Origin: Rhizodiscina lignyota
Lineage: Eukaryota > Ascomycota > Dothideomycetes > Aulographales > Rhizodiscinaceae
Assembly (NCBI GenBank): GCA_010015805.1
Contig: ML978139.1
Coordinates: 1-64,000 of the forward strand
DNA: 64,000 nt
Direction of reading: 5' to 3'
The notes under the pieces were generated by a model. That model had not been told where the DNA came from and made no database searches. It saw only the letters and a program-made list of their open reading frames with translations. A program made the position numbers and the translations under genes. Below, piece by piece: positions 26,207 through 40,994 of the stretch (position 1 is its first letter; every line of letters begins with the position of its first letter).

Positions 26207-26948
26207 TCATCCTAGGTCCATGGCATCATCATCCGACTCCTCGAATGTTGCGTCGTACCCATCATCCACATTAGATGGTGGTGGGCTCGCATCTTTATGG
26301 CCACGGCCCGGTGCGTCTCTCCATTTCAGGTGAGCAAAGACCTTCTTTGGTTGTTCTGGCTCGTCTTCAACATCCATCTCCCCTCTCTGCTCTTTCTTGG
26401 CCCTTGTTCGAGACTCTAGTCGAGCCCTGTTCCTGCTTTCGATGATTGCTTTCCGCACATTGTCCTGTTCCTTTGTAAGAGATATCGAGTTCGGTATGGA
26501 ATTGTACAGTATCAGCTGCTTGTCATTCAGCTGTGATCGAGGCTCTTGTCCTAAAAGCAGGCGCTTTGGGAATTTGTTCAGATGTTTCTCAATGTCGGGG
26601 ATGAAGATTGGACGCTCTTCGTCCGATTCTAGTTCCGCGAGCTCCGCATCGAGGTCGTGAATGAAGACTCTATCCTTTGAATCCTCCACTTGCATATAGT
26701 CATCACTGGCAGAGGGTGGAGGTACCGGCGGAGCAGATTGGTCACCCGTAGCGAGTGGGACGTACTGTTTGTGGCTCGTATCTACTTCGTAGTGCATAGT
26801 TAGTGAGAGGATGCAAACAGAGAGCGCAATGGTACATACCGAGATTCAAGAGGTCGAAGCGCTTTGCCAATCGATCATGATCCCCAATGTCTTCTGGCTT
26901 GCGCTTCGAGCCGGCATGAATGGTGTCGTGAATGGTTGTGGTCGCCAT
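26207..26948 (-). CDS. Conserved-looking acidic protein of unknown function (227 residues)
   Basis: Two exons, 26948-26840 and 26781-26207, over a 58-bp intron (GTATGT donor, branch CTAAC, acceptor TAG). The junction rebuilds RFDLLNL-DTSHKQYVPL. A conserved-looking core reads FIHDLDAELAELESDEERPI then FIPDIEKHLNKFPKRLLLG and LILYNSIPNSISLTKEQDNV, ending in a basic helix RKAIIESRNRARLESRTRAK. The C-terminus is acidic (EESDDDAMDLG). Charged ends flanking a helical core suggest a nuclear or nucleolar adaptor, but I cannot assign a function. It is transcribed divergently from the alanyl-tRNA synthetase with only 191 bp between the upstream-most starts. Confidence 0.8.
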
Positions 26949-27139: not shown

Positions 27140-30100
27140 ATGACGGGGAAGGCGTTGTGGTTTGGTTTCAGGCGCAATTTGACTCACACCATAAGCTTAG
27201 ATGTAAAGCTCCCACAGCTCAGCTCGAAATTTCAACTTCTCCCACAAACACACAGAAACTCTCCACTCCTTCTTTCAAACCTCGATTTTCGGCGCAAAAT
27301 GTCGACTTCTACTGGAGAGACGGAGTGGCCCGCCGCACGCGTGCGCAGCACTTTTCTCGACTACTTCAAGAGGAATGGCCACACGTTCGTGCCCTCGTCC
27401 TCTGTCGTCCCGCACGCAGACCCTACGCTCCTGTTCGCGAATGCGGGCATGAACCAGTATAAATCGATATTCCTCGGTACTGTCGACCCGAATTCAGACT
27501 TTGCGCACCTCAAGCGCGCTGTAAATTCGCAAAAATGCATTCGCGCCGGCGGGAAGCACAACGATTTAGACGATGTGGGCAAAGATAGCTACCACCATAC
27601 CTTTTTCGAGATGTTGGGCAACTGGAGTTTCGGCGACTATTTCAAGAAAGAGGCGATTGGATTCTCATGGGAGCTCTTGACAAAAGTCTATGGGCTGAAC
27701 CCTGACAGGCTGTATGTCACATACTTTGAGGGCGATGAAAAGCTCGGGCTCGAACCAGACTTGGAGGCTAAAGAGTTGTGGAAATCTGTTGGTGTGGCGG
27801 ATGACCATATCCTGCCTGGCAATGTGAAAGACAACTTCTGGGAAATGGGCGACCAAGGACCTTGTGGGCCATGTAGTGAGATCCACTACGACCGTATTGG
27901 GGGCCGAAATGCTGCGCATTTGGTCAATCAGGACGATCCGAACGTACTGGAGATTTGGAACAACGTCTTCATACAGTTCAATAGAGAGGCTGACCGCAGT
28001 TTAAAGCCATTACCGAACAAGCACGTGGACACTGGATTGGGCTTCGAACGACTAGTATCCGTCCTACAGGACAAATCTTCAAACTACGACACTGATGTGT
28101 TCACTCCTCTATTCAAGACCATTCAAGAAATCACGGGCGTGAGAGAATATCGTGGCAAGTTTGGCGATGAAGACTCGGACGGCATCGACACTGCATATCG
28201 CGTGGTCGCAGATCACGTCCGGATGTTAACCTTTGCCATCTCCGACGGTGGAGAGCCCAGTAATCTCGGCAGAGGTTATGTCGTGCGTCGCGTACTCCGA
28301 CGAGGTGCACGATACGGCCGCAAATATCTGAACGCTTCGATAGGCGATTTCTTCTCGAAGATAGTCCCAACTCTCGTGCAGCAGCTTAGCGATATGTTCC
28401 CAGAAATAGAGAAGGCGCAAGCAAACGTCAGAGAAATCCTTGATGAAGAGGAGCAGTCATTCGACAAGACGCTCACGCGCGGCGAGGCAGAGTTTGAGAA
28501 GTTCGCACAACAGTGTAAACAGAAAGGCACGAAAGACCTTCCTGGCAAAGACGTTTGGTTGCTCTACATGACCTACGGCTTCCCGGTTGATCTGACACAG
28601 ATCATGGCTGAAGAGAGAGGCCTCCGGATAAATCAGGAAGAGGTTGATAAGGCAGAGGAGGAGGCAAGGGAGGCGAGCAAGCGACCAAAGAAGGCTGTCG
28701 GAGATCTTATCAAACTCGACGTACACGATATCAATGCTCTGCAGAACATGCCCGATGTTCACCGAACAGATGACTCCGCAAAGTATGGCAAGAAGAATAT
28801 CACCTCTACCATCAAAGCCCTTTACCACGGTAAAAAGTTCATTGAAGACGCGAAAGATATCTTCCACGGGGACCGCTTTGGCATCGTTATGGACAAGACA
28901 TGCTTTTATGCCGAACAAGGAGGCCAAATCTACGATACTGGCAAGATCGTCATTGACGGTATTGCGGAATTCAACGTGGAAAACGTGCAGCTCTATGCCG
29001 GATACGTCCTTCACACTGGCTGGTTACAGTATGGCTCTTTGAAGGTAGGCGATGAAGTCATTTGCGAATATGACGAGCTTCGCCGCAATCCCATCCGAAA
29101 GAACCATACCGGCACTCACATTCTCAACTACGCACTACGTGAAGTCCTTGGCAACGGCGTCGATCAAAAGGGCTCATATGTTGGGCCAGACAAGCTACGA
29201 TTCGACTTTTCTCACAAGTCCTCAGTCTCCGAATCCGAACTCGAGAAGATTGCAGAACTCTCAACCAGCTACATCCACCAAAACTCCGAAGTCTTCTCGC
29301 AGGAAGTTGCACTGCCCACTGCGCACAACATTGAAGGTGTTCGCGCCGTCTTCGGCGAGACCTATCCAGACCCCGTTCGCGTTGTATCAGTCGGTGTGCC
29401 TGTGGAAGATCTCATGCAAGATGTCAAGAATAATGCCTGGCGGAAGGTCAGCATCGAGTTTTGCGGTGGTACGCACGTTGATAAGACGGGTGAGATCAAG
29501 GATCTCGTCATTCTCGAGGAGAGCTCCATCGCGGCCGGTATCCGGCGCATCACTGCTGTGACGGGCCAGGATGCACATAGGGTAACACAAACTGCAGAAG
29601 AATTCTCCGAGCGACTCGCCGAGTTCGAACGCATGCCGTTCAGCGCAGACAAGGAGGAGCGGAGGAAGCGCATCCGCGTAGAGCTGACAGACCTGGAGAT
29701 ATCAGCCCTGACGAGGAAGGAATTACTTAAACGGTACGACACTGTAGCGAAGGATATTCTGAAACACCAGAAGCAAGCACAGTACGAGGAGAAGCAAAAG
29801 GTGCTGGGGCTGATTAAAGACCACTTCGCGAAGGACGACACAAAGGCCCAGCCATTCCAGGTCCTGAAGGTGCCATTCCAGACGACCCCGAGGATTTTGA
29901 GCGAGGTCATGAAGGAGTTGAGCAGTAAGCAGAAGGATAAGTCGGTCTACGTCATTGCAACTGAGCATGGCGGGGAGAGGGTAACGCATGGGTGCCACGT
30001 TTCTCAGGTGAGTTGATGACTCCGTCCCTGCTCATCGCACGCTCGTGGCTGATTAATTTTGCAGCAATACCTGAATCAGGGCGCTTCTGCTGGCGACTGG

Positions 30101-32546: not shown

Positions 32547-33333
32547 GCATGTAGGCGAGATGAAGCATCTTCAAATTGCCCCCACCGAGGATCGTGACAC
32601 TCGAAGTCGACGGAGCACGGAATGCAAGGTCATGCAGGCGGATCGCGACCATACGATTGGAAAGCGATGATGCAGCTACCTACTCCAGGAGGAATGGAGA
32701 TGGCCCAGGACATTGGATCATGTAACACATCGTACAGTGAGTGCGGCCCGCACTGAGACATGGCCCAGAGTGGCGACGAAGAGGCCGAAGCGAGCAATTG
32801 ATTGTCGCCTGTAGATAAAATTAACAAAATTCCACTCTGAATCAATAACTCAGACCGTTGCTGTTGCATGCACCAAGTGCAGGAACGCGCAGCGGCCCGT
32901 GTATAGATAAAAGCAACGATAGAACGGTCGTGCAACGGCTTGAGAAGGTGAAGCTTCGGGACTTGACGTGATGGGCGCGCCGCGACCGGCCTATTTTGCG
33001 CAGTGACCTAGCCGACTGTGCAGTGTTAGAAATCAACCTCGACAAACAGCAAAACGACCACCATCGCATCATCCAAACTGCCTCGGGCCCCTAAGACCAC
33101 CTCTAGAACCGTCCAGCGCATGTCATAATCTCCAACTCCCGCGTTTCTTTCACATCAGCCTCAGCCCCGTATATTCAATTCCTCCCCTCTCCAGCTGTAC
33201 GGGTATTCCTAATATTCTTTGCCCTTTCTGTCACCCGGACTGCACCCTCGCGCCGGCCCTCCGTTGAAGCCAGATAAATATCCTCACACCGACTGAACTT
33301 CACCACACAAGCAATCACCTATCGACCGTCAAA
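32547..33333. other. Intergenic / thioredoxin reductase leader
   Basis: No separate gene is supported. The right end is the 5' leader of the thioredoxin reductase transcript. It is pyrimidine-rich from about 33125 to 33245, which is common in strong fungal promoters. A TGA at 33265-33267 closes the frame that becomes the presequence, and no ATG lies between it and 33496 in that frame. Confidence 0.5.
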
Positions 33334-34782
33334 CTGTTCTCTACCGCCTTCCGTCGTGCAGGCTTTCGTCCCCTCCGATCCTCCCTCAGTCTGCCCATTG
33401 CGGCCGCGGCAACTCTCCACAACTCGAACCGCGCTTCCTCTGGCCTTTCGGCCATTTCCACACCTCTTCAGGGCTCGCTTGGAGCAAAAAGGACGATGCA
33501 CTCAAAGCTAGTCAGTATGTATACCTCTCGTCTCGCTTCGTGTGCAATCTCAACTAAATGTAATAGTTATCGGATCAGGGCCTGCAGGCCACACAGCGGC
33601 TATCTATGCTGCGCGTGCTGACCTAAAACGTAAGTTACTGCAGCATAAATAATCGTCTAGTCATGAGCTAACAAGTTGTAGCTGTCATGTACGAGGGTTT
33701 CCTCGCGCTTGGCATAGCGGCAGGCGGCCAATTAACGACCACCGATGAGGTCGAGAACTTCCCCGGATTCTCCAAGATTCAAGGCGCGACACTGATGGTG
33801 AGTTCCGAGATCAGCGCTCTAAAGATGATCGAAACTAATGAAATTCTTTTATTCAGGACCAAATGCGGGCCCAGTCTGAAGCCGCCGGTACCGAAATCGT
33901 CACCCAAACAGTTGCAAAAGTCGACCTGAAATCAAGACCGTTCAAATACTGGCTGCACCCAATGGGCGATGATGAGACGATTGAGGACGAAGAGCCGCAC
34001 ACCGCCGACGCCATAATCATCGCCACGGGCGCAAAAGCCCGCAGATTAAACCTCCCCGGCGAAGACAAATACTGGGGCAATGGGGTGAGCGCGTGTGCTG
34101 TGTGCGACGGCTCGCTCCCCATGTTCCGAGACAGGCCGCTCGTAGTTATCGGAGGTGGAGATTCGGCGGTCGAGGAGGCGATATACCTGACTAAGAAGGC
34201 GAGCAAAGTATACGTCCTGGTGCGGAGGGACAAGCTGCGAGCGAGCAAGACGAACGCGAAGAGATTGACGACAAATAAGAAGGTGGAGATCAAGTACAAG
34301 TCTGTCGGCGTCGAGATTAAGGGAGAGAAGAAGGATAGAGGGTTGATGACGCATCTGCGGGTTAGGAACGTTGAGACAAAGAAAGAGGAGGACTTACCCG
34401 CCAATGGCCTGTTCTATGCGGTTGGCCACGAGCCGGCAACGTCGTTGTTCAAGGGTCAGCTCGAGATGGACGAGGATGGCTATCTTATTGTCGATCCTGG
34501 CAGAGCTTTAACAAACATCGAAGGCGTCTTTGCTGCTGGCGATGTGGCGGACAAGCGATATAGGCAGGCTATCACTAGCGCAGGTGAGTTTGATGTCCTC
34601 AATTTTGTTTTAGGACATTACTAACATTATTAGGCTCTGGATGCATAGCAGCGCTTGAAGCCGAGAAGTGGCTAGCCGAGCAAGACTCCAGCGTCGAGAA
34701 CGAGCTCGAGCTCGAGAACCAGGCCGAGAAGTCGCAAGTCAACGGCGTTGTCCCCGAGTACAGGTCAAACCCACTGTTGTAA
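33334..34782 (+). CDS. TRR1: Thioredoxin reductase, with a probable CUG-initiated mitochondrial form
   Basis: Five exons: to 33514, 33567-33629, 33682-33797, 33857-34583 and 34634-34782. From the ATG at 33496 the protein has 357 residues, the normal size of the low-molecular-weight NADPH-dependent enzyme that reduces thioredoxin. FAD site GSGPAG is near residues 9-14, the redox pair is CAVC (Cys146/Cys149), the NADPH site is [13 protein letters not shown], and the C-terminal FAD segment is [15 protein letters not shown]. Upstream of the ATG the frame is open to 33268. It encodes 54 residues from a CTG at 33334 (A at -3) that begin [20 protein letters not shown] and contain 6 Arg, 1 Lys and no acidic residue. 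This is a typical mitochondrial presequence. No AUG is available for it, so CUG or another near-cognate start is inferred. The long form would be 411 residues. Confidence 0.93.
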
Positions 34783-39126: not shown

Positions 39127-40994
39127 ATGAAGGCATCGCTTGTTGCCATTGCGGCGAGCACGCTCCTCGGGAGCGCTGCGGCGTCAGTCCACCACCGACA
39201 TGTCGAATTCCATAACAGGAGGAACTTGAACGTTCTCGAGAGGGGCGCGACAAATGCGACATGCGGTTGCTCGGTCAGCACCACCACGATGTACGGAGCA
39301 ATGACCTGTACGTCCCGATAGAAATAGTCAATTGAGCATGATCCGTTCATACAATGACTATCCTCGATTGATATGATACATATACTCATGCTCGCTTTCC
39401 AGTGCACCCTAAGCCTCCACCAGCGCCTACGCCGGTTCTTTCATCATACTCTGCGCCTGGTACTTACACGATCTCGAAGAGCACGATCACTCTCACAGAG
39501 ACGACCACGGTTGCTTCCGCATCGACAGCAACCCTAACGCCAGGAGAGTGCACGTATGGTGGTACCACCACTTCCGTATCGGCTCCGACGACTGTTACCG
39601 TGCCAATTGGAACTGTATCAGGCTCTTCACCAGCAACCACCAGCATCGTAAAGACATCTACCCACTACTGCTCTGAAGCAGGTACCTGCATAATTGGTGC
39701 AACGAGCGCGAGCGTCAGCGTTAGCACTGTCACCGTGTATCCAGTTCCCGCGACATATCCTCCTGGCACGTACACTATTCCTGAGTCCACCATTACGGTC
39801 ACGGAGACGAACACCGTCTATGTGTGCCCCTTCTCAAGCGTCAAGCCAACTACCAGCTCCACCCCGGCTCCCAGCACCTCTGAAGCCCCGAGCACCTCTG
39901 CAGCCCCGAGCACCTATGAGGCTCCAAGCACCTCTAAAGCTCCAGTGACCACCTCTCCGGCCCCAGCTCCTGAGACGTCTTCTGCTGCGCCTGTCAAGCC
40001 CCAGGCATACAGCTCGCCAGCTGCGCCAAAGGCTCCAGAATCTTCTCCTGCGTCTCCGGTCAAGGAGTCGCCGAAGCCGAAGCCTGAGACACCGACACCC
40101 TCGCCAAAGCCCGCATCGACGTCAAAGCCCGCATCGACGCCAAAGGCATCCAAGCCATCAGGCTATGGTGGCAAGGGCGGCAGCGCTAGTATCGGTGCGA
40201 ATGGCAACAAGTGGGCCATGTCGTACACGCCGTACACCACTACCGGAGCGTGCAAGACGGCCGACGAGGTCAACTCTGATATTGCCCAGATCGCCAGCAT
40301 AGGCTTCAGCTCCGTCCGCTTGTATGCTACTGACTGCTCTGGTCTCCCGAACGTCGGTGGTGCTTGCAAGAACCATGGCTTGAAGCTCATCGCAGGTATC
40401 TTCATCGACGAGAGCGGAATTAGCAAGGCTTCCGAGCAGGTGAGCGACATCACCAGCTGGGGCAACCAGGGCAACTGGGACACAATTGAGATGATTGTCA
40501 TCGGTAACGAGGCCATCTTCAACAACTACTGCACCGCTGAGGAGCTTGCTGGCTTCATCACTTCAACCAAGGAGACCCTCAAGTCTGCTGGCTATACCGG
40601 ACCTTGCACTACGACCGAGCCGCTCGGCACGCTTATGGCGAACAAGGGCGCCATCTGCGGTGTTGTCGACGTTGTTGCAGCCAACATCCAGCCCTTCTTT
40701 AACGCGGCTGTGTCCGCTTCTGACGCCGGCAGCTTTGTCGCCAGCCAGCTCGAGCTTACTGGAGAGCAATGCCCCGGCAAGACGGCATACAACCTCGAGT
40801 GCGGATGGCCGAGCAACGGTAGCCCGAACGGCGAGGCCGTGCCCGGCCCAGAGCAGCAGAAGGAGGCCATTGGCGGAGTCCTGGGCAGCAGCGCGGCAAG
40901 CCATACCGTCATCTTCAGCTTTGAGAACGACGCATGGAAGGGCTCCGGAGACTATGGTGTTGAGCCATACTTTGGCTGCGCTGACATTTTGTAA
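39127..40994 (+). CDS. btgE: Secreted GH17 glucanase / glucanosyltransferase-like cell-wall protein (BtgE-like)
   Basis: Exons 39127-39307 and 39403-40994 over a 95-bp intron give 590 residues. A signal peptide (MKASLVAIAASTLLGSAAAS) is followed by a Ser/Thr-rich region with TTVTVP-type repeats and then about 150 residues rich in Pro, Ser, Thr and Lys. This part has tandem short repeats such as APSTSEAPSTSAAPSTYEAP and KPASTSKPASTPKA, probably heavily O-glycosylated. The C-terminal third is the GH17 barrel, with proposed acid/base Glu430 (VIGNEAIFNN) and nucleophile Glu526 (YNLECGWPSNG). It acts on beta-1,3-glucan in the cell wall. The layout matches Aspergillus BtgE. No GPI signal is seen: the protein ends at FGCADIL, so it may be held in the wall by other bonds or released. 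Confidence 0.9.

Follow-up and report, generated by a model that had tools for sequence, protein, structure and literature searches.

A candidate CUG start that may add a mitochondrial presequence to the thioredoxin reductase of Rhizodiscina lignyota

In yeast, cytosolic and mitochondrial thioredoxin reductases both exist, as is proposed here for another fungus, but they come from two genes, Trr1 and Trr2, and not from two starts (PMC6416177, PMC6382746), a split also described in PMC12386961. Several filamentous fungi have been reported to possess a single thioredoxin reductase (PMC6382746), so that the route by which their mitochondrial thioredoxin is reduced is unclear. In Kluyveromyces lactis one gene, TRR1, has been suspected of supplying both cytosol and mitochondria; its authors mention, as unpublished data, reductase activity in the two fractions and do not decide between one and two genes (PMC2754438). 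In Fusarium graminearum, TRR fused to GFP and driven by the native promoter gave an even signal across hyphae and conidia that was called cytoplasmic (PMC6416177), a paper on A. nidulans draws TrxR among the cytosolic antioxidants (PMC13253075), and the S. sclerotiorum enzyme was predicted by software to be cytoplasmic (PMC6382746). The uniform F. graminearum signal could mask a minor mitochondrial fraction, but that result nowhere favours dual targeting. The original prediction for the present locus appealed to near-cognate starts that feed mitochondrial forms, and near-cognate starts that yield isoforms for a second compartment are indeed documented in fungi (PMC7049704, PMC7214817, PMC5368413). 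Near-cognate initiation is also described for Neurospora cpc-1 (PMC5487733), and weak AUGs and near-cognate codons have been exchanged repeatedly during fungal evolution (PMC7049704).

We analysed a 64-kb stretch of Rhizodiscina lignyota DNA (hereafter the window), and the features discussed below are listed in Table 1. Judged by its predicted protein, the gene at 33496-34782 is a low-molecular-weight thioredoxin reductase (hereafter TRR). The protein scored 369.5 bits against TIGR01292, passing the curated cut-off of 343.45, and alignment with solved fungal enzymes showed that the CAVC active site was intact and that the FAD and NADPH glycine motifs, including GGGDSA, were invariant or kept. 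The nearest solved structures were 6bpy, 7ytv, 5w4c, 3d8x and 3itj; the tables name the molecules and not the organisms, and we take them to be enzymes from Aspergillus fumigatus, Cryptococcus neoformans and S. cerevisiae. The gene is interrupted by four introns, each 50-59 bases long, with the donors GTATGT, GTAAGT or GTGAGT and with CTRAY present in three of them. Their removal gave a protein of 357 residues from the ATG and of 411 residues from the CTG at 33334, the two lengths that had been predicted.

Table 1 Features of the thioredoxin reductase locus and of the neighbouring synthetase gene in the window
Feature	Position	Strand	Details
Alanyl-tRNA synthetase (AlaRS)	27140-30016	+	first ATG 27140, T at -3 (weak); second ATG 27299, A at -3 (strong)
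ATG-free stretch 5' of the TRR start, treated as putative transcript leader	33124-33495	+	
In-frame TGA bounding the open frame	33265-33267	+	
CTG, most likely near-cognate start	33334-33336	+	context GTCAAA CTG T
Candidate mitochondrial presequence	33334-33495	+	54 codons; 6 R, 1 K, no D/E
Thioredoxin reductase (TRR) gene	33496-34782	+	exons 33496-33514, 33567-33629, 33682-33797, 33857-34583, 34634-34782
TRR ATG, start of the 357-aa enzyme	33496-33498	+	A at -3
TRR stop codon TAA	34780-34782	+	

It had been claimed that the frame of the TRR ATG is open and free of ATG back to the TGA at 33265, and that a CTG at 33334 with A at -3 adds 54 residues containing six Arg, one Lys and neither Asp nor Glu. 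Both statements proved correct, down to the first residues of the extension. Within 33001-33520 the only ATGs were those at 33120, 33496 and 33517; the first is followed by a stop two codons on, and the last lies within intron 1. ATG was thus absent from 33124-33495, as it also was in 7.6% of shuffles of the same stretch. This leader is C-rich and purine-poor, and acidic codons and stops are therefore scarce in it.

Eight in-frame near-cognate codons lie between the upstream stop and the ATG: ATA 33274, ATC 33280, CTG 33334, CTG 33391, ATT 33397, ATT 33454, AGG 33490 and ACG 33493. They were scored at -4 to -1 for CAMM, which we take as a label for the start context, and only the CTG at 33334 carried it (CAAA), with T and not G at +4. 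Well-translated fungal starts show a strong preference for A at -3 to -1 (PMC7049704), and a G at +4 is considered important (PMC5487733). The CTG at 33334 also coincides with the beginning of the basic, acid-free part of the frame. The 70 bases that end just past it (33270-33339, + strand) were predicted to be nearly unstructured; of 200 shuffles, 199 folded equally well or better. A leader of this kind would suit scanning. No Yap1-type site (TTASTAA, TGACTAA, TTASTCA and their kin) was found within 32547-33495. The idea, taken from PMC12718117, that RNA structure 3' of the CUG might help initiation was rejected, as three stretches showed no excess stability (z of -0.7, -0.8 and -0.2).

A model in which this one gene gives rise to both a cytosolic and a mitochondrial thioredoxin reductase through a near-cognate start is plausible but unproven, and we place its chances somewhat below even. 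Transcription would have to begin above 33334, and some scanning ribosomes would then initiate at the CUG, or at another in-frame near-cognate, and produce a precursor of 411 residues. The Arg-rich, acid-free N-terminus of this precursor would direct its import into mitochondria, where it would be clipped off. Most ribosomes would scan past by leaky scanning and start at the AUG at 33496, giving the cytosolic enzyme of 357 residues. What the sequence establishes is the enzyme family, the open frame with its residue content, the context of the CTG, and the lack both of an in-frame AUG and of an AUG exon joined by canonical splicing; transcription from above 33334, initiation at the CUG, import and processing are the steps we infer. 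A further extension of the model, which we consider improbable, is that start stringency at the CUG sets the mitochondrial to cytosolic share of TRR, and that stress or starvation, by relaxing start selection, would move reducing power into mitochondria with no need of a second gene.

The extension had been described as a classic amphipathic presequence. Its charge and composition are indeed presequence-like, but its helical order is ordinary. The helical moment of the first 20-24 residues was equalled by 12-21% of permutations, so its amphipathicity does not stand out and the wording "classic amphipathic" is too strong. AlphaFold models of the extension joined to six N-terminal enzyme residues (pLDDT 55) and of an out-of-frame control (pLDDT 59) were both too poor to use, helices being seen in the former and none in the latter. 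The N-terminus of 5w4c was dropped as a precedent, since acidic residues precede its MHSK and a tag is there indistinguishable from native sequence.

Could such a frame have arisen by chance? It may be a Ser/Leu/Ala/Arg-rich, acid-free stretch that happens to lie in phase with the ATG and has no function, only the 357-residue protein being made; we regard this as a serious possibility, somewhat below even. It would be favoured by a leader that is pyrimidine- and C-rich and poor in GAN codons and stops. Dinucleotide shuffles were counted when their last 54 codons were open, acid-free and contained at least seven Lys or Arg, optionally with a helical moment at least as high as observed. Among 20,000 shuffles each, this was seen in 2.3% for 33200-33495, 2.8% for 33124-33495 and 7.2% for the extension alone, and with the helical moment added in 0.4%, 0.5% and 1.3%, respectively. 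For the longer stretch 32600-33495 (8,000 shuffles), the values were 0.4% and 0.08%. The range of 2.3-7.2% for leader and extension shuffles speaks for a fortuitous frame, whereas the drop to 0.4-0.5% of leader shuffles once helical moment is included speaks against it.

Counting all six reading frames, the window contains 29,988 stop-free segments of 54 codons, and 791 of these were acid-free and basic. The 791 fell into 52 regions, two of which were the TRR extension itself, and this abundance again makes chance a reasonable source. The same count contained another long acid-free, Met-free and Arg/Leu-rich open stretch at 39949-40084 (+). Against chance, the CTG with its CAAA context sits at the onset of the basic, acid-free part, and a comparable acid-free and equally basic open stretch was found at none of 16 other start positions (up to 15 genes, with AlaRS used twice), several of these starts being uncertain because introns were left out of the gene models. 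All these results suggested that the TRR extension is uncommon yet attainable by chance and only moderately beyond it, which is unusual and not decisive. Chance is the harder to dismiss because the extension was singled out among many genes.

Codon usage was examined in the same frame. The synonymous-codon score of the extension was -5.6, the lowest of the three frames (the others being -2.4 and -0.9), and its overall codon score was below that of every one of the 107 in-frame blocks of coding sequence taken from the training genes; scores that do not favour the extension frame are what a chance frame would give. AlaRS, encoded in the same window, was used as a control. Its two ATGs enclose a basic stretch of 53 residues with nine Lys or Arg and two Asp, and with a lower helical moment than that of the TRR extension. 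The overall codon score of this AlaRS extension was also lowest in its own frame, which indicates that the overall score is blind to presequences, whereas by synonymous score the correct AlaRS frame ranked best. The TRR extension thus finds no support as coding sequence in codon usage, which tilts slightly against it. The AlaRS start arrangement resembles that of the N. crassa DualAUG AlaRS, a known fungal pattern of dual localisation (PMC7049704). The divergent neighbour of AlaRS at 26207-26797 (-) showed a match to PF20354 (DUF6649) of 105.5 bits.

The extension might also be real and yet entered from an AUG, carried by an upstream exon or by another allele or strain, in which case no near-cognate start would be involved. 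There is a parallel in the mitochondrial signal predicted inside the annotated K. lactis Trr1 protein (PMC2754438), and on paper ten in-frame joins from an upstream ATG into the extension frame can be drawn. However, all ten need a GTGCGG donor at 32741 together with an AAG acceptor and an intron of 529-571 bases, and a CTRAY branch point preceded none of the 41 candidate acceptors, a test that is not watertight given that one of the four real TRR introns also has no CTRAY. No 5' intron with canonical signals that would supply an AUG was found, and entry by that route was rejected. We consider an AUG route of any kind very improbable.

We then compared the enzyme itself with its solved relatives. 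TRR differed at 38 of the 191 columns where 6bpy, 5w4c and 3d8x agree, while the same departure count was 13/166 for 6bpy, 15/168 for 5w4c and 22/175 for 3d8x (TRR versus 6bpy, Fisher P 0.0013). Rcl1, encoded in the same 64 kb, showed no such excess, with 8/83 departures against 8/83 for its closest PDB match, 5oql, a Chaetomium structure; this match suggests that the DNA is from a filamentous ascomycete. The excess divergence of TRR suggests that it may be a second reductase, either mitochondrial or specialised, and that a standard TRR1 is encoded at another locus of the genome; Beauveria bassiana has been reported with two TrxRs (PMC6382746). In contrast, several plant-pathogenic fungi are reported in the same source to have a single TrxR (PMC6382746), the catalytic motifs of the present enzyme are intact, and the divergence is measured with three reference enzymes and with one calibrator gene, which is thin. 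A diverged second copy would thus be possible, if rather unlikely, and it overlaps with the other alternatives. Were it true, the idea of two enzymes from one gene would be wrong even with a real presequence, and mitochondrial targeting of the product would still be compatible with it. A genome-contig scan for relatives returned no fungal TRR among the best 80 loci listed, whose titles were all bacterial and whose identity did not exceed 58%, and no fungal TRR was found in two viral-contig scans either (0 loci in one, 14 loci with up to 48% identity in the other).

Returning to the CUG-started mitochondrial form, the anatomy of the locus fits what was predicted, with CAAA before the CTG, a leader (33124-33495) devoid of ATG, an extension that is rich in Arg and acid-free, and no canonical splice route to an AUG, but the frame could be due to chance, the codon usage is unsupportive and the gene is possibly a diverged copy. 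Such a form, if true, would be invisible to annotation based on AUG starts. The phenotypes of TRR knock-outs are currently interpreted as cytosolic, and a hidden mitochondrial form would alter that interpretation.

No report of a non-AUG-started thioredoxin reductase was found in searches of the main texts of open-licence PMC papers. If the form is real, TRR would plausibly join a known class of organellar isoforms started at near-cognate codons, for which no thioredoxin reductase was found reported in that literature. K. lactis TRR1 resembles TRR as one gene suspected of serving two compartments and differs in that its predicted signal lies within the annotated protein (PMC2754438). Ustilago maydis Pgd1 is similar in that the 5' leader of a fungal gene, lacking any upstream AUG, hides a targeting signal; however, its start is AGG AUU and its signal is a peroxisomal PTS2 kept in related fungi, whereas the candidate TRR signal would be mitochondrial (PMC7214817). 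Yeast Gpx3 is, like TRR, a thiol-redox enzyme, and its mitochondrial form arises from an upstream non-AUG start; its extension has 18 residues, leads to the intermembrane space and is backed by experiment, whereas the candidate TRR extension has 54 residues with a matrix-type composition (PMC5368413). The DualNCC aminoacyl-tRNA synthetases of fungi are supported by ribosome profiling and comparative data, unlike TRR, which is a different enzyme and is represented here by one sequence (PMC7049704). Like TRR, these synthetases carry an in-frame near-cognate codon in good context above the AUG, and in their case it is accompanied by a predicted mitochondrial signal (PMC7049704). Among the features of the DualNCC genes, TRR shares an in-frame extension free of AUG and stop codons and a near-cognate CTG at 33334 in a strong context, with T at +4.
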